A stretch of DNA of 64,000 nucleotides from Methanomassiliicoccales archaeon (GTDB taxonomy: Archaea > Thermoplasmatota > Thermoplasmata > Methanomassiliicoccales > UBA472). The stretch is taken from positions 200,547 to 264,546 of the forward strand of contig JAPKYK010000003.1 of NCBI GenBank assembly GCA_026394395.1. The letters are read 5' to 3'. Below are positions 1 to 9,603 of this stretch, piece by piece; the first letter of the stretch is position 1; each line of letters begins with the position of its first letter. A program made the position numbers and the translations under genes. The notes below the pieces were generated by a model. It was not told the origin of the DNA, ran no database searches, and saw nothing but the letters and a program-made list of their open reading frames with translations.

Positions 1-804
1 ATGGTCATGGACCTGTGCGGCACCGGGGGCGCCCCGGTACGGACCTTCAATGTCAGCACTATCAGTTCCTTCGTCCTGGCCGCGGCCGGGGTCCCAGTGG
101 CCAAGCACGGCAACCGTTCCTCGAGGGGACGTTGCGGCAGTGCCGACATGTTAGAGGCGCTGGGCGCAGACATCTCCCCCGGCACGGAGCAGACGACACA
201 AATGCTGGACCGGATCGATTTTACCTTCCTCTTCGCCCCGGCCTACCATCCGGCCATGCGCCACGTGGTCAAGGCGCGAAAGATGGTGCCCGTACACACC
301 GTCTTCAATGTGATGGGGCCGTTGATGAACCCGGTGCTGGGGCCCCGCCGGCAATTGCTGGGCGTGCATTCCCCGGCGCTGCTGGACGTCGTGCCCGCGG
401 TCCTGGACCTTCTCGGAGTGGACCGGGCGTTGGTAGTCCATGGCCAGCCGGGAATGGACGAGGTATCACCCTGCGGCGCCACTCAGGTGGCCGAGCTCAG
501 GGGCGGCACCGTCGAGAGGTACGAGATAACCCTGGAAGAGATAGGGATGAAACCTTGTCAGCCCAGATCCGTTGGCGAGCTGGCCCTCCAGGCGGCGGCC
601 CGCTGTTGTACCGATGTGCTGCGGGGTCGTCGTAACGAGCGCCGGGACATGGTCCTCATGAACTGCGCCTGCGCCTTCTTCGCCTTCGGCAAGACCAGCA
701 GCCTGGCCTCGGGGCTCTCCTTGGCGGAGATGACCATCGACAGCGGGAAGGCCTTCGCCAAGATGAGGGAATATGTGATCGCCAGCAGCAGGGGGGCGTC
801 GTGA
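1..804 (+). CDS. trpD: Anthranilate phosphoribosyltransferase (5' end outside window)
   Basis: Transfers phosphoribose from PRPP to anthranilate, the second step of tryptophan synthesis. The visible 267 residues begin at the glycine-rich PRPP loop (DLCGTGG, then TFNVST), and continue with HGNRSSRG, GSADMLEALG and GMDEVSP. The family is usually about 330-350 residues, so roughly the first 70-80 are outside the window and the ATG at base 1 is internal. The loop reads GTGGA where many family members have GTGGD; I believe some archaeal TrpD share this. The gene overlaps the next by 4 bases (801-804), and the neighbours trpC, F, B and A leave little doubt about its role. Confidence 0.93.
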   Translation: MVMDLCGTGGAPVRTFNVSTISSFVLAAAGVPVAKHGNRSSRGRCGSADMLEALGADISPGTEQTTQMLDRIDFTFLFAPAYHPAMRHVVKARKMVPVHTVFNVMGPLMNPVLGPRRQLLGVHSPALLDVVPAVLDLLGVDRALVVHGQPGMDEVSPCGATQVAELRGGTVERYEITLEEIGMKPCQPRSVGELALQAAARCCTDVLRGRRNERRDMVLMNCACAFFAFGKTSSLASGLSLAEMTIDSGKAFAKMREYVIASSRGAS

Positions 805-1601
805 TGCTCAGCGACGTGGAGGACCGTTTGTCGCTGCTGGTGAGCAACGCCCAGGAACTGGTGGGATGTGGTTTCTATTCCGATCCTGCGGTGCGTCCTG
901 GCGGATCGCCCGGGGCCGGCCCGGCCTCACTGACCAAGGTGGTGAGGGAGCACCCTTCCTTCCCTATCCTGGCGGAGATAAAGCTGGCCTCCCCCACCGC
1001 TGGACGGCTCGGCCCGCACCTGGCCCAGGAACTGATCGACGACTACTGCCAAGGAGGGGCGGCCGCCCTGTCCGTCATCACCGAGCCACGGTACTTCAAG
1101 GGGTCGCTCCGATATCTGGAGCTGGCTGCACGTACCGGCCTGCCAGTGATGATGAAGGACTTCGTGGTCGATGTCAGGCAGGTGGAGGCCGCCGCCCGTC
1201 TGGGCGCTTCGGCCATACTGCTCATCGAAGGAATATTCGAACGTGGATTGGCTTCCGGGCGGGACGACCTTATCGAAAAAGCCCACCGCCTAGGGTTGGA
1301 AGTGGTGCTGGAGGCGTCCGACCTGGAGGAGGTGCAGGGGGCGATGACGTCCGAGGCCGACGTCCTGGCCTTCAACCGGCGGGACCTGCGCACCTTCCGC
1401 CAGGGCCCGGATGCGCTCGGTGAAGCCCTGCGCCTGATCGGGGAGGGCGGCCGACCGGCCATGGCCATGAGCATGATGGACACCAGGGAGGACGTGTGCC
1501 GGGCTCGGGACCTGGGCGCTTCCTGCGTGCTCATCGGCTCCGCCCTGAGCGGCACGCCCAGCCCACGGGACAAGCTGCTGTCGCTGAAGGTGGGAAGATG
1601 A
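801..1601 (+). CDS. trpC: Indole-3-glycerol-phosphate synthase
   Basis: Closes the indole ring of carboxyphenylamino-deoxyribulose phosphate in tryptophan synthesis. The 266-residue single-domain TIM barrel shows the family landmarks: AEIKLASPTAG near residue 58 (catalytic lysine and phosphate loop), MKDFVVD near 117, ASAILLIEG, LEVVLEASD, and a C-terminal phosphate loop ending in CVLIGSAL. Length is normal. It starts inside the end of trpD and overlaps trpF by 4 bases (ATGA), which suggests translational coupling. It is not fused to trpF, unlike in enteric bacteria. Confidence 0.95.
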   Translation: MMLSDVEDRLSLLVSNAQELVGCGFYSDPAVRPGGSPGAGPASLTKVVREHPSFPILAEIKLASPTAGRLGPHLAQELIDDYCQGGAAALSVITEPRYFKGSLRYLELAARTGLPVMMKDFVVDVRQVEAAARLGASAILLIEGIFERGLASGRDDLIEKAHRLGLEVVLEASDLEEVQGAMTSEADVLAFNRRDLRTFRQGPDALGEALRLIGEGGRPAMAMSMMDTREDVCRARDLGASCVLIGSALSGTPSPRDKLLSLKVGR

Positions 1602-2215
1602 CCGCGATCAAGATATGCGGCATGCGCCACCGCGCCGACCTGGAGAGCTGCCGTGAAGCCGACTACCTGGGATTCGTGGTGTTCACAGATTCGTCGAGGA
1701 GCCTGGACCTTGGTACTGCCTCGGACCTCATGTCCTGCTGCGGCAATCTGAGAGTGGTAGTGACCACGGAGACAAGACGGAGGGAGCTGGAAGGGATAGT
1801 CCGCCGGCTGGACCCGGACGCTCTGCAGCTGCACTCACCTTTTGACAGGAAGCTCCTGGAGAGCACGAGGGATCTGGGGGTCCCGGTGTGGGGGGTCATG
1901 ACCGTTCGCCCCGGAGCCTGCCTTGACCGCGAGGCCTTGAACTCCATTCATGCATTGGTGCTGGATTCCCCAGGGAAGATGCCTGGGGGCAACGGGCAGG
2001 TCCATGACTGGACCCTGAGTCGGGCCATAAGGGACGAGGTGGATCCTCTGCCGGTGGTGCTGGCCGGGGGGATCACCCCCGGGAACGCCGTAGATGCCGT
2101 GAGGAAGGTGTCCCCCTTCGCCCTGGACGTGTCCAGCGGCGTGGAGGGGGAGGCGGGGAAGGACCCCGTAAAAGTGAGAGAGCTGATCATGAAGGTCAGA
2201 GGTGAGGACGGATGA
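1598..2215 (+). CDS. trpF: Phosphoribosylanthranilate isomerase
   Basis: Isomerises phosphoribosylanthranilate to the linear CdRP form. The 205-residue TIM barrel begins MTAIKICGM, the family's typical N terminus with the catalytic cysteine. It continues with [14 protein letters not shown] and the C-terminal [11 protein letters not shown] and LDVSSGVE phosphate-binding loops. An upstream in-frame start at 1496 exists but lies inside trpC and adds residues unlike the family; the ATG at 1598 overlaps the trpC stop as ATGA and is the better start. It overlaps trpB by 4 bases in the same way. Confidence 0.94.
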
Positions 2216-3384
2216 AGGACAGGTTCGGAATTTATGGCGGACAATACGTGCCGGAGGTGCTGGTGCCGGCCTTGCAGGAACTGGAGAGGGAATACGTCGC
2301 CGCCAGGGCGGATCCCGAGTTCGTCAGGGAGCTGGATGACTTCAACCGTCATTACGGCGGGAGGGAGACCCCCCTGTACTTCGCCAAACGATTGACGGAG
2401 ATGTGCGGCGGGGCCAGGATATACCTGAAAAGGGAGGACCTCTGCCACGGCGGGGCGCACAAGTTCAACAATGTGATGGGACAGGCGCTGCTGGCCAAGC
2501 GCATGGGGAAGGGACGCCTCATCGCCGAGACGGGGGCGGGTCAGCATGGGACGGCCACGGCCATGGCCGCGGCGGTGCTGGGGATGAGGGCGGAGATATA
2601 CATGGGAGAGAAGGACGTGGCCAGGCAACGCATGAACGTCTTCCGCATGAAGCTCATGGGGGCGGAGGTGCACGAGGTGCGCTCCGGCTCCCGGCTGCTG
2701 AAGGACGCGATAAACGAGGCGTTGCGGGACTGGGCAGGAAGCGTGGAGAGCACCTACTATCTACTGGGCACGGCGGCCGGACCGCATCCCTATCCCACGA
2801 TGGTCCGGGACTTCCAGAGCATAATCGGACGGGAGATAAGGCATCAGCTGATGGAGGCCGAGGGCCGTTCACCGGACCTGCTGGTGGCCTGCGTGGGAGG
2901 GGGGAGCAATGCCATAGGCACCTTCCATCCGTTCATCGAGGACCGGGGGGTGCGCATGCTGGGCGCGGAGGCGGCTGGTGACGGTCTGGAGACCGAACGC
3001 CATTCGGCCACCCTGTCCCGGGGCGAGGTGGGCGTGCTGCAGGGCTGCAAGTCCTATCTGCTGCAGGACGAACATGGCATGATCAAAGAGACCTACAGCC
3101 TCGCCCCAGGTCTGGACTACCCGGGCGTGGGTCCGGAGCATAGCTTTCTTATGGATATCAAGCGGGCGGAGTACGTCGGAGTGACGGACGCACAGGCCCT
3201 GGAGGCTTTTGTGACGCTGTCCCGGGTGGAAGGCATAATACCGGCGCTGGAGAGCGCCCATGCCGTGCATGCCGGGATGCGGGAGGCTTCGGGCATGCGC
3301 CGGGACCAATTGGTGGTCATCACCATTTCCGGCCGCGGGGACAAGGACCTGGAGACCGTGTTCGGCCTGGGAGTGGTGGGATGA
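2212..3384 (+). CDS. trpB: Tryptophan synthase beta subunit
   Basis: Condenses indole with serine using PLP. The 390-residue product is normal length for the TrpB1 type that pairs with TrpA. It begins with [13 protein letters not shown], has the PLP lysine in GGAHKFNN near residue 86, ETGAGQHG near 108, the phosphate-binding GGGSNAIG near 230, and HSATLSRG. It follows trpF with an ATGA overlap and overlaps trpA by 4 bases, as expected for subunits of one alpha2-beta2 complex. Confidence 0.96.
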
Positions 3385-4184
3385 GCCGGCTGAGCGAGGC
3401 GTTCGCCGAGGCGCGGCGGGAAGGCCGGACGGCACTGGTCTGCTATCTCATGGCCGGCGTCCCTTCCCCCGAGGGCTTCATCGACATGGCCATGGCCTGC
3501 CTGGAGGGCGGGGCGGACGTTCTGGAGATAGGCATACCCTTCTCCGATCCGTTGGCCGACGGGGCGGTCATACAGGAGGCGGGGGTCAGGGCGCTGGAGA
3601 ACGGGGTGACCCCGCCCATGGTACTGGAAATGGTGAGACAGCTCCGGGGAAGGACCACCAGGCCCCTGGTGCTCATGGGCTACTACAACCTCATATTCCG
3701 CATGGGGGAGGAAAGGTTCGTCTCTGCCTGCTTGAAAGTGGGAGCGGAAGGCGTCATCGTACCCGACCTACCATTGCATGAAGGCGAATCACTGCGTCGT
3801 ACATGTTCGCAAAAGGGTTTGGACTTGGTGCAGTTGAGCACCCCCCTGACCCCGGACGATCGTAACCATGCGCTGATGGATGCCACATCCGGTTTTCTGT
3901 ACTTAGTTACCCGCACTGGTGTCACCGGGGGAGGGGTGGTCGATACAAATGACCTCCGACGCATGGTGGAGCGGGCCAGGAAGGCAAGGGATGACGTTCC
4001 CTTGGCCGCGGGTTTCGGCATCTCCGGACCAGAGCATGTTCAGATGGCAAAGGAGGCGGGCGTGGACGGAGTGATCGTAGGTTCGTCGTTAGTAGCGATG
4101 ACGTTGAACGGTTCTTCCCCGACCGAGGTCCGGAACGCTGTTAGACGATTGTCCGTGGCATGCGGTCGGGGGGCTATTATATGA
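3381..4184 (+). CDS. trpA: Tryptophan synthase alpha subunit
   Basis: Cleaves indole-3-glycerol phosphate to indole, which is channelled to TrpB. The 267-residue TIM barrel carries [14 protein letters not shown] (catalytic Glu and Asp both present), the loop [25 protein letters not shown], and the phosphate loop GFGISGPEH and GVIVGSSLV. It is the last gene of the operon; after its stop the DNA turns AT-rich and non-coding for about 500 bases. Confidence 0.95.
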
Positions 4185-4261
4185 TCAATGGGTGCTCATT
4201 CTGTAAAATTCATTTATTAACATTGTTAAAATGAATACTAACCTTATTCTGAGCTGATTTT

Positions 4262-4510
4262 TTTATCCTGAATTCGACAGTTGATCTTGAGAATATTCAC
4301 TGCTTTTAGAATTTGACAGATGATTTTTCGGTGTTCTAACCTCATCGAAAACGCCCGTTTTCGGGCGTTTTCAACTAGGTCGAACACAGATATTCAGCCA
4401 AAATGGCCTTGTTGACCGCGTTGAAGTTCGAATAGAACCTCTTTTTAGCCCGTTGCCCATCGAAACCACCGTTTGTCCTGAGATCGACACTTGGTCGTGA
4501 TAATTTTCAG
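4262..4510 (+). repeat. Degenerate 39-base direct repeat (two copies)
   Basis: Copy 1 is 4262-4300 and copy 2 is 4472-4510. Aligned without gaps, 30 of 39 positions agree; shared blocks include TCCTGA, TCGACA and TTG. The copies are 210 bases apart and flank the hairpin at 4347-4372. Neither falls in a gene. The family is unknown to me. Confidence 0.5.
4347..4372. repeat. Perfect 11-base inverted repeat, possible transcription terminator
   Basis: Arms GAAAACGCCCG and CGGGCGTTTTC enclose a TTTT loop with no mismatches. It lies about 160 bases after trpA. A GC-rich stem with a T-run in the 3' arm could end transcription, although archaeal terminators usually need only T-tracts. It may instead belong to the degenerate repeat unit around it. 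Confidence 0.45.
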
Positions 4511-4689
4511 AGAAATTGAGCATCTATTGAATTCAACGAGATCGACTGTCGAAGTCAGAATAGAGAACCAAAACAAGAGATGTACCTCCTGCTATACTTG
4601 AGGTTCGTATGCTACAACATTAAATCGTAATGAATAAATATATATTCCCAATAGAACCTTAGAAATATCAACGCCGATAGTTCAAGTTA

Positions 4690-5361
4690 ATGAAGTTCAA
4701 GAAAATGAACAATAAAAATACTGCATGCAGCTGGAGTGGCGGAAAAGACAGTTGTTTTGCATTAATGAAAACTATTCAAAATGGTTATACACCTAAAATT
4801 TTATTGAATGTATTGAATGAAGAAGGAAAGATTTCCCGGTCACATGGTATTCCTTCGGCTATATTACAAGCACAGGCAAGTGCAGCAGGGTTGCCCATTC
4901 ATTTCATCAGCAGCAGTTGGAAAGATTATGAGAAAAAATTTATTGGCACCTTGCAACTATTGCAAAAGCAGTATCAATTACAATATGCGGTGTTTGGAGA
5001 TATTAATCTACAACCGCATAGGGATTGGGAAGAAAAAGTATGCGCCGATGCGGGAATAAAAGCCATTTTACCACTCTGGCAACAAGACAGCAGAAACTTG
5101 ATGATGCAAATGATGAGCAGCGGCATCGAAACAATGATCGTCAGCTGCAATGAAACATTGGGCGAGCAATTTTTAGGAAAAATTATGAATGAAGAACTCA
5201 CCGATGAATTAGATACACTAGGTGTTGATGCCTGCGGTGAGAACGGCGAGTTTCATACTCTTGTTTTGAATTGTCCCCTGTTCAAACAAAGGATTGATGT
5301 TGTCGTTAAAAACAAACTGAAACAGGAAAAGTATTGGTTCACAGAATTAGTATTGCCTTAA
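4690..5361 (+). CDS. Dph6/MJ0570-family ATP-binding protein (probable recent acquisition)
   Basis: The 223-residue protein belongs to the PP-loop ATPase family that includes diphthine-ammonia ligase (Dph6, DUF71). It has the ATP loop SWSGGKDS near residue 15, SRSHGIPSAIL, VFGDI near residue 100, and the family hallmark CGENGEFHTL near residue 182. It lacks the C-terminal extension of eukaryotic Dph6, so it may be a Dph6-like amidase or ligase of unknown substrate. Codons are strongly A/T-ending, in contrast to the trp genes and the rest of the window, and the protein reads like Bacteroidetes members of the family. I infer horizontal transfer. Starts at 4690 or 4705 are both possible. Confidence 0.75.
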   Translation: MKFKKMNNKNTACSWSGGKDSCFALMKTIQNGYTPKILLNVLNEEGKISRSHGIPSAILQAQASAAGLPIHFISSSWKDYEKKFIGTLQLLQKQYQLQYAVFGDINLQPHRDWEEKVCADAGIKAILPLWQQDSRNLMMQMMSSGIETMIVSCNETLGEQFLGKIMNEELTDELDTLGVDACGENGEFHTLVLNCPLFKQRIDVVVKNKLKQEKYWFTELVLP

Positions 5362-5860
5362 AAAATTGGCTCCAACCCCATTCATGCGGGTATGAGGCTT
5401 CCCAGGATCACCTGCGAGAGATATTGCTTCTTTATGCCATTGCTTTCCAATCCTATTTTCATACATTCGGATTATGCTGATAAATCGGAGAAATACGTCA
5501 TCCCCTCCACCTTCTTCCAAGGGAAAATCGAGAACAGTTCAGAAAATGGTCATTTTCAATCTATATACTTATCATAATGATTGTGAGGTAGGCTTTTTTC
5601 AATTCTATATATTACCCCCGCACTTAGATTTATTTAGTATGGCTGTGGAAAATAGTGGTTCGATTTATTTATCCGCATCGAATAAATGTAAACATCTAGA
5701 CCGCTATCCTTTAGAACATGGGAAAGGGGGCATTAGGTTGAGTCATGTATTGATATTATTAGGGGATTTCGTATATTTCGATGCTTTTTCATAAATACTA
5801 ATGACGCCAATCAGCTTTTCCAGTAATCCCCTAAGTAGATATTGACACTTTTATGAGTGG
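5362..5860. other. AT-rich gap without a convincing gene
   Basis: This is about 500 bases between the Dph6-like gene and the nitroreductase. Two overlapping short frames exist (5392-5577 and 5474-5794), but their products show no family features and have erratic composition. I regard the stretch as non-coding or decayed. Confidence 0.55.
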
Positions 5861-6514
5861 TCAAATCCATCTTGTAACCTCGTCCATTGATGGCCTTTTA
5901 GATAGTGCAGGGGAAGCATCTGGGTAACCGAGTAAGCAGCCATCTAGGGCATACTCCCCGAAAGGAATGCCGAGGAGCTCACAGAACTCCTTGTCCTCAG
6001 CCATCCGTTCGGTGATAGAGAAAAGTTGGAAGCCAAGTCCAAGGGCGTTGGCCTTCAGCCACATGTTCTCCAGGCAGTGGGCCAGGGAAAGCTGTGCCAC
6101 ATCAGGAACACCTCTCTGTTCGGCTACTACGACATAGTACGGCGCCTTCCCCAGGTTGGGTGGTCCTTGCTGGCTGGTCATCCTCAGCATGCCAAGGTAC
6201 CGCTCCCCACGACTTCTTTGAAAAGCATCATGCTGCATCCGTTCCCCCAGCTCTTCGGACAGGATGGCACCTCGATGCTTCATTAGTGAGATTACTTTAG
6301 CGGTCGCATCACTTTCCCGAGGGATTATCACGAACCGTCGAAAGTCTTCTCGGGTTACGCTGAGCTGGGCATAAGGAGCAAGGAGACCGGCCTGAAGGAC
6401 CATCTCTACCAAAGGTCTTGGAGGGCTCTGTGCTTTGAACTTGCGGACCGTTCGTCTTGAATCAATCAGATGATCAAGCACCTGGTTCTGCTCTTCAATG
6501 GTGAATGAGGTCAT
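5861..6514 (-). CDS. Nitroreductase-family flavoprotein
   Basis: A putative FMN-dependent NAD(P)H oxidoreductase of 217 residues. The N terminus has the family pattern LIDSRRTVRKFKAQSPP (FMN-phosphate-contacting arginines). The middle has PYYVVVAEQRG and LSLAHCLENMWLKANALGLGFQLFS, the helix and strand that close the FMN site. The start at 6514 is chosen over 6532 because GGAAAGGG (6523-6530) lies at ribosome-binding distance. The substrate cannot be read from sequence. It stands alone, with AT-rich gaps on both sides. Confidence 0.82.
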   Translation of the reverse strand: MTSFTIEEQNQVLDHLIDSRRTVRKFKAQSPPRPLVEMVLQAGLLAPYAQLSVTREDFRRFVIIPRESDATAKVISLMKHRGAILSEELGERMQHDAFQRSRGERYLGMLRMTSQQGPPNLGKAPYYVVVAEQRGVPDVAQLSLAHCLENMWLKANALGLGFQLFSITERMAEDKEFCELLGIPFGEYALDGCLLGYPDASPALSKRPSMDEVTRWI

Positions 6515-6532
6515 AATTATATCCCTTTCCAC

Positions 6533-6913
6533 ATACCCGATTAATCAATGATATCTTTATTCTTCGGCATTAAACATCTTACTCTCCCCCAAGTAGGATT
6601 GGTTTGAAACTACTAGTTTATCTTAATTTCCGATGAAATTTAAAGTTTAGAATTAACCTTTTTTACATTTTATAGCATTAAAAAGAATCTCCTTTTTTTA
6701 AAAAAATAATTTTACTTATGATTCCTGAGATAATAATTCTATTAATTTTAAGTCTCATGATTCTATTCTTTATAGTTCAAGGGTTCGAATCCTTTCCCCT
6801 GCCCAATTTTTATAAATATTTATGGATAATTAGATTTTCGTAGACACCTCTCATATACTATCAATAAGTACAAAATAATATAATTGAGTTATATACTAGG
6901 AAAATTGAACCTC
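6533..6913. other. AT-rich gap holding a tRNA remnant
   Basis: Very AT-rich non-coding DNA between the nitroreductase and the membrane-protein gene. It includes a T7A7 palindrome at 6693-6706 and the tRNA 3'-half remnant at 6749-6802. The upstream region of the membrane-protein gene must contain its promoter; AATATAATT at 6876-6884 is a possible TATA element. Confidence 0.55.
6749..6802 (+). pseudogene. tRNA 3'-half remnant, copy 1
   Basis: The stretch aligns with the tRNA-Leu-like remnant at 8000-8054. An anticodon-arm-like part (TAAGT, loop CTCATGA, TTCTA) pairs poorly. It is followed by a 13-base variable region, then a T arm with AAGGG, loop TTCGAAT and CCTTT (one G-T pair), then CCCCTGC. 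No D arm or matching 5' acceptor strand lies upstream. It shares the 18-base core GTTCAAGGGTTCGAATCC (6775-6792) exactly with copy 2. I read it as a degraded integration-site copy. Confidence 0.6.
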
Positions 6914-7492
6914 ATGATTTACAAAGAGGATAGATTAAATCATTATTATTCGAGTAGTGGGGTTTTTGATTTTTTTCATCAGCTCATCCTTCATTCTAAC
7001 AAACTATCAAAGATCATTATTCTAACATTTTTTTCAATTTTCCTCATCGTTCCATTATTGGGCGGTCCGAATGAAAGTACAACACGTCAATTAGAGTCAA
7101 TTACAGTCTTCTCCGGGCTGACCATAGTCTTCAGTCTGATGATCATAGTCGTACACACATTTGCAAAAAGACAATCGGACCCAAGACTCAAGAAAGCTGG
7201 TTCGGGAATCATTTTAATAATTTCAATACCAATCTTGCTCTATCTTCTAACCATCATCTTGACATTCTTGTTAGGTTTAGAGGTAATCGTGGTGCTTAGG
7301 GCGATCTCATCGGTAGTCATCATAATCCCCCTCATACTGATCATCATGATTCTGGTCGAATCGGTAATTCGGCAAGGGATTGTCAAAAAAAGAGTCGAGA
7401 GTGCCTTTGGGCTTGATCTTCCTGACCATTGTATTGATAATATACACATTTGCCACGGTTTATTACGTCAACGGTCTATTAGAAAAGGCTGA
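6914..7492 (+). CDS. Multi-helix membrane protein, probable S1-S4 part of a split channel
   Basis: The 192-residue product (ATG at 6914; a TTG at 6884 would add 10) has about four hydrophobic helices. They lie near residues 33-50, 60-82, 96-121 and 123-150, joined by short charged loops. After residue about 158 (the run of seven A around 7384-7390) the frame leaves the membrane-protein pattern and ends in a short, unrelated-looking tail. The overlapping +1 frame continues with a fifth helix, a pore loop and a sixth helix (7380-7712). Together they would form a six-helix channel. I infer that this gene is the front half of one protein. Codon use is AT-rich like the rest of the island. Confidence 0.55.
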   Translation: MIYKEDRLNHYYSSSGVFDFFHQLILHSNKLSKIIILTFFSIFLIVPLLGGPNESTTRQLESITVFSGLTIVFSLMIIVVHTFAKRQSDPRLKKAGSGIILIISIPILLYLLTIILTFLLGLEVIVVLRAISSVVIIIPLILIIMILVESVIRQGIVKKRVESAFGLDLPDHCIDNIHICHGLLRQRSIRKG

Positions 7493-7712
7493 TCCAGCGG
7501 GCGATTTCTTAAGCACTAGCGTGATCAATGTCAGTTTTGAGGATTCGATGTATTATAGCGGTCTCATTTTTACAACGCTTGGTTCATCAGAAATCATCCC
7601 CATCGGCATTGGTCAAGGGGTCACATTGTTCGAATCCGTCACGGGCTATCTAGTGCTAGGCTTCCTTACTGCCATATTCATTCAAGCAATCATTACTGGG
7701 AGAGAAAAATGA
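7380..7712 (+). CDS. Ion-channel pore domain (two helices and a P loop), probable S5-P-S6 part
   Basis: The 110-residue frame has a helix near residues 10-33, a pore-loop-like segment SGLIFTTLGSSEIIPIG near 60-76, and a second helix near 83-106. This is the Ion_trans_2 layout, but the selectivity filter TVGYGD is replaced by TLGSSE, so potassium selectivity is doubtful. The only nearby start is TTG at 7380, immediately at the A7 run, and it has no separate promoter. It overlaps the preceding gene by 113 bases in another frame. It is probably the back half of a six-helix channel joined by a frameshift (programmed, mutational or a sequencing error). Confidence 0.55.
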   Translation: MSKKESRVPLGLIFLTIVLIIYTFATVYYVNGLLEKADPAGDFLSTSVINVSFEDSMYYSGLIFTTLGSSEIIPIGIGQGVTLFESVTGYLVLGFLTAIFIQAIITGREK

Positions 7713-8367
7713 AGGTCTGCAAAATTCCCACTTTGTAAAATCAGTGCCATTGATGGATATCATCTGGCGAAAGTGGGAAACCTTGAGGTCCATTGCAGCC
7801 AATATTATATTACTGTGGGGTGGTTTTCGAAAATAGGCCCAAGCCCCCGGGGTCCTTCATTCTATTATCAGGGATTATTGCACTTATAAAGGCATCAACG
7901 GTCTGCACGGACACGAAAAACATCTTCGGCAAGGCTTAAAATTGTGAGTTTTCAGTAGCATATTAATATCGATCTGTACAATCATTTTTTTCGTGTTGGC
8001 AGGACTTAAGATTCTGTCCCTAGCGGTTCAAGGGTTCGAATCCCTTTCCCCGTAATACATACCTATTATACAAGAGAACAAGAAAGTAAGATATAGATAT
8101 TGTATAAATCTATTTTTTATCAATTGAAGACAAACGAATTAGAGAGTTATTATATATGATATATATTTATAAATAAAAAGAAATGGGTTTAAGTCGATAA
8201 TCCTCTGATTAATTAAAAAAATTGACTTACTGGTTATCGTGTCGGACAAATCCTGGCGCCCGCACTTCAACAATTTCAAGCTGCCTCGATTTTGATTCTA
8301 TCGAAGGGGCTTTATTGCTGGTAGGGAACCAGCTTCTTTTTGCTTTCCCAATACAGATGGAACTCCC
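7713..8367. other. Non-coding stretch between channel gene and DEAD-box helicase
   Basis: About 655 bases with no supported gene. It holds the second tRNA remnant (8000-8054) and very AT-rich DNA after it (8055-8220). The open frame at 8222-8623 on the plus strand is mostly antisense to the helicase. The 3' end of the minus-strand helicase gene enters from the right. Confidence 0.55.
8000..8054 (+). pseudogene. tRNA-Leu(UAA) 3'-half remnant, copy 2 (probable attachment site)
   Basis: A well-formed 3' half: anticodon stem CAGGA/TTCTG around loop CTTAAGA (anticodon TAA, leucine), and a 13-base variable region. The T arm AAGGG/CCCTT pairs perfectly around TTCGAAT, and it ends with the acceptor strand TCCCCGT and discriminator A at 8054. 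No D arm and no ACGGGGA 5' strand are found upstream, so it is not a working gene. Anticodon-to-3'-end tRNA halves are what archaeal integrases leave at element ends. With copy 1 at 6749-6802 it brackets about 1.25 kb that holds the split channel. Confidence 0.68.
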
Positions 8368-9603
8368 TTACCTGTTGTACGCAGGTCTGTTCCGGTTCGT
8401 CCTTGTGGGCGGGCTCGCTGGCCCTCTTCCTCGGGGAGCGTTATGGATGGGAAAGGGCCTCTTGATCTCGGGTTCAGGCCGGTGCACGATCTCTATGTCT
8501 AACAAGTCAATGGGCTTGCCGGTCCTGCGCTGGATGTCCCTGATCATGCCGCGCTCCTCGGGCAGGAATATCGATACCGAGGTGCCTTCCTTCCCCGCCC
8601 TGCCCGTGCGTCCGATGCGGTGAATGTAGGTGTCCGGATCGCTCGGCGCGTCGAAATTGATAATACAGTCCACGGCGTCGATGTCCAGTCCGCGGGCGGC
8701 TACGTCAGTAGCTACCAGTATCTTGATTGAACCGTCCTTGAAGCTCTTGATGACCCTTTCCCTCTTGTTCTGGGCCACATCGCCGTGTATCGCGCCGACG
8801 CGGTAATTGTAGGCCATTAGCTTCCTGGTCAGCTGATCGACCTTGTGCTTGGTGTGACAGAACACAATGGCCTTGGGATTGTTCGTGTCGAGGATGGTGC
8901 AGAGCGTGTCGCGCTTAGAGTCCTTGTCCGATATGATGTAATATTGTTTGGTCAGGTCCAGGACCGGCTTATCCTTGGAGACCAGTATCTCCTGGGGGTT
9001 GACCATCTGATGCATTGCCAATTGTTTAATATCCGGCGACATGGTCGCGGAGAACAGCAGCGACTGCCTCTTCCTGGGCACCTTCGATAAGATGAAATTG
9101 ATGTCCCTGATGAAACCCATGTCCAGCATACGGTCCGCCTCGTCCAGTACCACGACCGATATCTTGGAAAGGTCCAGGTCGTTCCGGTTAATGAGGTCCT
9201 TGGTCCGGCCAGGTGTAGCCACTACGATGTCCACACCCCTTCTGAGCTTGGCTATCTGAGGCTCGATGCCCACTCCCCCGTAGATGGGGATGCATCTGTG
9301 ACCGGTGAACTTGGAGAGCTTGGTAAGCTCCTCGGAGACCTGATTGGCCAGTTCCCTGGTGGGAACCAGGACCAACGCGGATGCGAACCGCATCCCGGGC
9401 TTGATGTTCTCCAGTATTATGGACCCGTATGCGCCGGTCTTTCCCGTCCCGGTCTGGGCCTGGGCGAACATGTCGCCGCCCTTGAGGCCTAACGGTATCG
9501 CTTCTATCTGCACGGGTGTGGGCTCTGTCCACCCCATGCCGTTCATTGCCCTGATGATCTCCTTTGAGATCTGTAGATCTGTGAAAGTTGTCACGATGTT
9601 CAC
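8368..9603 (-). CDS. DEAD-box RNA helicase
   Basis: A 411-residue ATP-dependent RNA helicase. Motifs in order: Q motif EPTPVQIEAIP, I AQTGTGKT, Ia PTRELA, Ib TPGR, II DEAD, III SAT, IV VFCHTK, V TDVAARGLDID, VI HRIGRTGRAG. The C terminus is a short basic, R/G/P-rich tail (about residues 385-411), typical of an unstructured RNA-binding end. Such proteins unwind rRNA or mRNA structures, often in ribosome assembly or cold response. The gene stands alone. A second family member with a different C terminus is at 26477. Confidence 0.93.
   Translation of the reverse strand: MNIVTTFTDLQISKEIIRAMNGMGWTEPTPVQIEAIPLGLKGGDMFAQAQTGTGKTGAYGSIILENIKPGMRFASALVLVPTRELANQVSEELTKLSKFTGHRCIPIYGGVGIEPQIAKLRRGVDIVVATPGRTKDLINRNDLDLSKISVVVLDEADRMLDMGFIRDINFILSKVPRKRQSLLFSATMSPDIKQLAMHQMVNPQEILVSKDKPVLDLTKQYYIISDKDSKRDTLCTILDTNNPKAIVFCHTKHKVDQLTRKLMAYNYRVGAIHGDVAQNKRERVIKSFKDGSIKILVATDVAARGLDIDAVDCIINFDAPSDPDTYIHRIGRTGRAGKEGTSVSIFLPEERGMIRDIQRRTGKPIDLLDIEIVHRPEPEIKRPFPIHNAPRGRGPASPPTRTNRNRPAYNR

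Follow-up and report, generated by a model that had tools for sequence, protein, structure and literature searches.

Probable integrase-less cassettes bounded by tRNA-Leu 3′ halves, away from any tRNA gene, in a Methanomassiliicoccaceae archaeon

A 1.2-kb AT-rich segment in the genome of a Methanomassiliicoccaceae archaeon is best read as an integrase-less cassette in a short array, because its right end resembles those of three units carrying unrelated cargo. We put at about 0.7 the probability that the segment is one unit of an array of such cassettes, which use the 3′ half of tRNA-Leu as their attachment site, and that this array was later separated from its own tRNA-Leu gene. Comparison with related genomes reveals integrase-less units bounded by a tRNA and a half copy of it, with clean empty sites, a shared right end, and related integrases at the same tRNAs. 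The array lies within a stretch of 64,000 nucleotides (hereafter the window; G000:C3:200547-264546) of a 1.64-Mb genome with a completeness of 99.85%, and positions given without a contig are those of the window.

The array occupies an AT-rich stretch between trpA, which ends at 4184, and a DEAD-box helicase gene (8368-9603, minus strand), whose closest named matches are Methanomassiliicoccaceae metagenome assemblies (74-80% identity). According to Pfam, this stretch holds diphthine-ammonia-ligase-like, nitroreductase and ion-channel genes. Its GC content is 0.28-0.54 across 4.2-8.4 kb, compared with 0.65 leftward and about 0.55 rightward, and neither Pfam nor tblastn with related integrases detected an integrase between these limits; the GC-rich neighbours and the missing integrase of the preliminary description are thereby both borne out. 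ARAGORN found no tRNA across the window, an intact tRNA gene being absent at either end of the array, and Rfam returned only chance matches over 4000-8800. The trp genes to the left (1-4184) have a GC content near 0.65, far above that of the window overall (0.574). At 4245-4575 lies a dispersed repeat with imperfect inverted ends (4259-4287 and 4539-4567) and a strong central hairpin, copies of which occur in this genome (two) and in G002, G003, G005 and G008; it is probably an insertion-sequence remnant, as the opposite strand of the copies resembles the end of a protein gene.

Two tRNA-Leu 3′ halves bound the segment, and neither has a 5′ half. The one at 7999-8054 (plus strand), a right attachment-site remnant, derives from tRNA-Leu(UAA): over 7999-8052 it is identical at 53 of 54 positions, with 48 exact bases, to the only intact tRNA-Leu(UAA) gene of the genome, which is on another contig (G000:C2:64005-64088), and past 8052 the acceptor ends diverge (TCCCCGTA against CCCCCGCA). 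A model built from ten tRNA-Leu 3′ halves (R1) assigns 80.4 bits to 8000-8054 (E 7e-23), a score that is high by construction because this half is among the ten; independently of the model, blastn matches the half to the C2 gene at 98.1% over 54 nt. The other half, at 6749-6803 (plus strand), is decayed and was no part of the model, which scores it at 33.7 bits (E 3e-9); after these two, the next-best match between 4 and 9 kb of the window has 5.4 bits. The two halves have an exact 18-mer in common (6775-6792 and 8026-8043), which is found nowhere else in the window, against a chance expectation of 0.04. These results agree with the preliminary description of a leucine tRNA 3′ half (TAA) without its 5′ half at 8000-8054, and of a decayed relative with an 18-base core at 6749-6802. 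They do not agree with its dating of the whole as old, since the half at 8000 is almost undecayed, and hence at least the event that left it is not old.

The intact tRNA-Leu genes of this genome have the anticodons UAA, GAG, CAG and UAG, with an extra copy, containing an apparent intron, at C3:321208. A split or permuted tRNA gene was rejected as an explanation of the half at 8000, given the intact tRNA-Leu(UAA) at C2:64005-64088, a gene that the preliminary description had proposed to look for in the rest of the genome. A dispersed genome-wide repeat was also rejected: only one more half was found elsewhere in the genome (C2:65452-65505, 34.2 bits), and all three halves bound gene-bearing units, rather than occurring singly at many unrelated loci, the pattern that the same description had set against integration.

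Between the two halves, the first unit carries an ion-channel gene (6914-7712, plus strand; PF07885, E 6e-8 on the second part), the homologue of which in G011 is a single intact frame of 280 aa (46-67% identity). In the window, a one-base shift at an A7 run (7385-7391) cuts this gene into two overlapping frames, for which mutation, slippage or assembly error are all possible. The array reaches left beyond 6749. Because 5614-5691 matches the end and flank of a tRNA-Leu(UAG) gene in the congener G008, the stretch from the nitroreductase gene through the 6749 half constitutes a second unit, with that half serving both as its right border and as the left border of the first unit. The probable left border of this second unit is a remnant of the tRNA-Leu acceptor 3′ end (CCCCCGCA; 5615-5622, plus strand), an 8-mer that is not significant by itself (3.3 bits), and which directly precedes a left-end segment (5623-5691, plus strand) shared with the sequence directly behind the G008 gene (81% over 78 nt, blastn E 1e-9; alignment score 49 versus 8.7+/-1.3 for shuffled sequence). 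The cargo is a nitroreductase-family gene (5861-6532, minus strand; PF00881, E 4e-15) with a GC content of 0.53 amid AT-rich DNA. Further left, the AT-rich diphthine-ammonia-ligase-like gene (4690-5361, plus strand; PF01902, E 2e-47) is possible cargo of a third, older unit, the left border of which is not recognisable. The best match to this gene in a plasmid collection, at 52%, belongs to the bacterium Aureibacter tunicatorum, hinting at a bacterial source.

The first unit is linked to units elsewhere by its conserved right end (7932-7998, plus strand), immediately before the tRNA half. The 75 bases preceding the half at 8000 align with both units of the congener G003, and with the unit at tRNA-Leu(GAG) in G009, at scores of 24.5-30, compared with shuffled means of about 7.4 (z 13.6-17.8), and none of 300 shuffles reached the observed scores. 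This likeness, which extends over about 65 bases, is seen despite differing cargo, and the half in G009 is of the GAG type. Other tested units do not share this right end, and hence more than one subfamily is present; a search with the right-end model (R2) over 22 genomes of the family yielded no further strong members, and no autonomous element with this right end. The half at 6749 is without right-end sequence, for the left ends of the units in the window one other site alone gave a match, and no conserved left end was found for the ion-channel unit. Between the window unit and the unit on C2 there is no homology outside the tRNA part.

Units of the same build stand behind intact tRNA-Leu genes in the host genome and in G001, G003, G009, G018 and G028. 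They span 0.57-2.9 kb, usually contain one gene, and each ends in a tRNA-Leu 3′ half; neither the window segment nor the other short units examined have an integrase of their own. In the host genome, the decayed half on C2 lies 1.37 kb past tRNA-Leu(UAA), with a TerB-family gene (PF05099) between. In G003, a congener (UBA472), a 1.23-kb unit with a membrane-protein-like frame ends in a half, and is followed by a 2.78-kb unit of HTH, ABC-transporter and cupin genes that also ends in a half, after which comes a conserved chromosomal neighbour also present in G008. G001 has a 0.75-kb methyltransferase unit, G009 has two units of 0.81 kb and 2.88 kb, and G018 has 1.37- and 0.89-kb units plus a further decayed copy, while G028, which represents another family of the order, has a 0.57-kb unit with a YdhR-type gene. 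In G005, the same YdhR-type gene precedes a half at a spacing equal to that in G028; hence related cassettes are present in two families. The genomes compared are mostly fragmented metagenome assemblies, and two of the G003 tRNA copies contain N. At one locus of G001 (L059:3393-3540, C111), a second half follows about 42 bases behind an intact tRNA-Leu(UAA), joined to it by left-end and right-end motifs, which reflects an artefact of assembly or else a mini-unit that is empty.

Empty sites were found in G001 and G009, sister species in which several flanking proteins are 96-98% identical. The methyltransferase unit behind tRNA-Leu(UAA) in G001 is absent from G009; conversely, the unit of about 2.9 kb (2.88 kb) behind tRNA-Leu(UAG) in G009 is absent from G001, and at both sites the flanks align straight across. 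As the tRNA of the empty site runs directly into the sequence that otherwise follows the half, the presence or absence of units is precise to the tRNA 3′ end. Such a pattern would fit insertion or precise excision alike.

Tyrosine recombinases of one family are found at the same tRNAs. In G001, a 308-aa member (PF00589, E 3e-15) ends four bases behind tRNA-Leu(GAG), and a 426-aa relative abuts a tRNA-Leu in G014; behind tRNA-Leu(GAG) of G009, a unit is followed by sequence like the start of the G001 integrase element. Behind tRNA-Leu(UAA), both G001 and G009 have a C-terminal stub of the same integrase family (E 0.002-0.005). The methyltransferase unit of G001 lies between the tRNA and this stub, and was therefore added after the older element; since the methyltransferase frame takes up most of its 746 bp, an integrase could not fit as well. 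Unlike SSV-type elements, whose integrase gene is split into N and C parts at the two ends, the window unit carries no fragment of an integrase at its left or right border, and the related integrases are unbroken frames that terminate next to the tRNA. A tblastn search for relatives of these integrases in viral contigs returned none. On a 3.4-kb contig of G008 (C7; L202:1350-2505), an integrase directly adjoins 17 bases that exactly reproduce the 3′ end of tRNA-Leu(UAA); this contig may possibly be a free element whose attachment site is short, and comparison of its ends gave no overlap.

The units are best explained by cassettes, presumably circular before integration, that consist of one or a few cargo genes, the right end of about 65 bp and a tRNA-Leu 3′ half. 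A tyrosine integrase, which would be supplied in trans, would recombine such a cassette with a tRNA-Leu gene at its 3′ half, restoring the tRNA and leaving a half copy at the far end. As each event would have both consequences, cassettes would stack behind the tRNA through repeated events, and a later rearrangement would have separated the window array from its tRNA-Leu.

Rather than arriving as a cassette, each unit might be the decayed core of an integrase-bearing tRNA-Leu element, from which the integrase and replication genes were deleted. Such loss of the integrase after integration has been described for archaeal elements (PMC8371274), and both the persisting stubs behind tRNA-Leu(UAA) in G001 and G009, and the full integrases at tRNA-Leu in G001 and G014, would be in keeping with it. 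However, units as small as 0.57-0.81 kb retain an open cargo frame and no remnant of an integrase, the 0.75-kb unit of G001 sits on top of an older stub common to G009, and the right ends are conserved while the remainder differs, making this origin rather unlikely. A further alternative is a route by homologous recombination, in which cassettes would enter through the 40-55 bp of tRNA-Leu identity with no dedicated integrase. The long identity at the halves, 48 exact bases in the window, and the units' want of integrases favour such a route, but integrase sites, unlike capture through homology, would be expected to have a common sequence beside the half, as the shared right end is, and one integrase family occupies the same tRNAs; hence we regard it as improbable. 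That the half at 8000 is instead a functional half-tRNA gene (a split tRNA), or a regulatory RNA, is barely credible: a TATA-like ATATTAATA that might drive it is located some 40 nt before the half, and related units partly preserve it, but the genome has an intact tRNA-Leu(UAA), a corresponding 5′ half was not found, and half copies decay in other genomes.

The position of the window array away from a tRNA gene has to be accounted for as well. The array joins trpA to the helicase gene, neighbours in this genome uniquely among the relatives examined, and hence it was probably stranded by rearrangement after integration. In congeners, the genes that come after trpA are cobalt-transport-like or of other kinds, and those after the helicase are different again; in several the gene after trpA is CbiM-like, of which this genome has only a 29%-identical relative. 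Neither a tRNA-Leu gene nor a strong tRNA-Leu half was found at the trpA or helicase loci of the congeners examined. The usual neighbour of the helicase in congeners, a gene named by eye as lipocalin-like, sits at G000:C4:118588-119052, with no tRNA-Leu half in the 19 kb examined around it, and a search for the partner breakpoint through the neighbours of the helicase and trpA did not find one. Alternatively, the array may have integrated in place, with a secondary site of the trpA-helicase region as its target, since sites that are divergent or lie between genes are open to archaeal integrases (PMC8371274), and the decayed left half could have served as such a site. This is a tentative possibility, against which stand the presence of at least two units, the insertion-sequence-like remnant at the trpA end, and the separation of trpA from the helicase in every relative examined, which points to rearrangement. 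The preliminary description, which interpreted the segment as an integrated element or its scar at a tRNA-Leu 3′ half, is supported as regards integration, for which speak the intact tRNA elsewhere, the congener units with the same right end exactly at tRNA-Leu, and the empty sites of the sister species. Its lone decayed element is better viewed as a small integrase-less cassette belonging to a family, and its single segment as one unit of an array that includes the nitroreductase gene; nor is the locus at a tRNA gene, as an element sitting in its tRNA target would be.

Among known systems, the array most resembles the additive islands that are anchored at tRNA genes. In bacteria, these flexible genomic islands of the additive type are stacks of cassettes at tRNA genes with partial tRNA repeats (PMC10872708, PMC7771536), which in the Methylophilaceae fGI-2 are the last 20 bases of tRNA-Lys (PMC10872708); their cassettes are exchanged between genera, and can be shifted within the island by rearrangement (PMC10872708; Actinomarinales cassettes, PMC7771536). 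Like the window units, these cassettes are small, and each is terminated by a directly repeated copy of the tRNA 3′ portion. The window has the stack and the partial tRNA repeats, whereas the tRNA anchor is absent there and present in relatives. Here, by contrast with the bacterial islands, the host is an archaeon, several tRNA-Leu isoacceptors are involved, one array is without any tRNA, and both a shared right end of about 65 bp and an integrase family at the same sites have been identified.

Archaeal elements at tRNA genes, their tandem integration and the loss of their integrases are already known (PMC8371274, PMC6563490). The cryptic integrated elements of Thaumarchaeota have tyrosine integrases at tRNA genes, direct-repeat attachment sites and mixed cargo (PMC6563490), but are defined by the integrase gene and span 2.6-98 kb, with a median of 17 kb (PMC6563490), whereas the present units span 0.57-2.9 kb and have none. 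The Thermococcus pTN3 integrase has been shown to generate chromosome inversions between tRNA-Leu sites (PMC5495485), and a rearrangement of this type between tRNA sites is a possible way in which the window array was stranded; pTN3 uses the 5′ half of tRNA-Leu (PMC8371274), unlike the 3′ half in the window units. Integrons and CALIN are arrays of single-gene cassettes with one recombination site each, mobilisable in trans, and have been reported from archaea (PMC9668308). The site here, unlike attC, is a tRNA half with tRNA structure, and we do not claim the integron label.

To these the present analysis adds integrase-less units of small size, found in an archaeal order at tRNA-Leu genes of several isoacceptor types; the corresponding empty sites of sister species; a right end that recurs with different cargo; and an array that stands apart from any tRNA. 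The integrated elements in the archaeal literature compared are for the most part large, and it is the integrase that identifies them; searches based on it would miss integrase-less units below 3 kb, and hence the extent to which methanogens acquire genes in this way may be underestimated. Together, the right end common to several units and the empty sites of the sister species provide a test system for which integrase acts, for circularisation, and for the arrival of bacterial-type cargo. A more speculative proposal, which we consider doubtful, is that Methanomassiliicoccaceae use an integron-like cassette system built on tRNA genes, in which a trans-acting tyrosine integrase recognises the tRNA-Leu 3′ half and the right end, shuffling single-gene cassettes among tRNA-Leu genes and between families. 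Were this the case, arrays without a tRNA anchor, such as that in the window, would correspond to the clusters of cassettes that lack an integrase.

Two loci on another contig of the host genome (C4) concern tRNA genes other than tRNA-Leu. At one (L112:8443-9764), tRNA-Met(CAU) and a gene for a 402-aa protein of the integrase family lie side by side, with about 39 bases between the 3′ end of the tRNA and the end of the gene. At the other (L113:5769-8762), FtsZ-like and HTH-like genes, named by eye, lie behind tRNA-Lys, followed by an apparent decayed tRNA-Lys 3′ end and an integrase fragment, such that a similar stack may be present at another tRNA.
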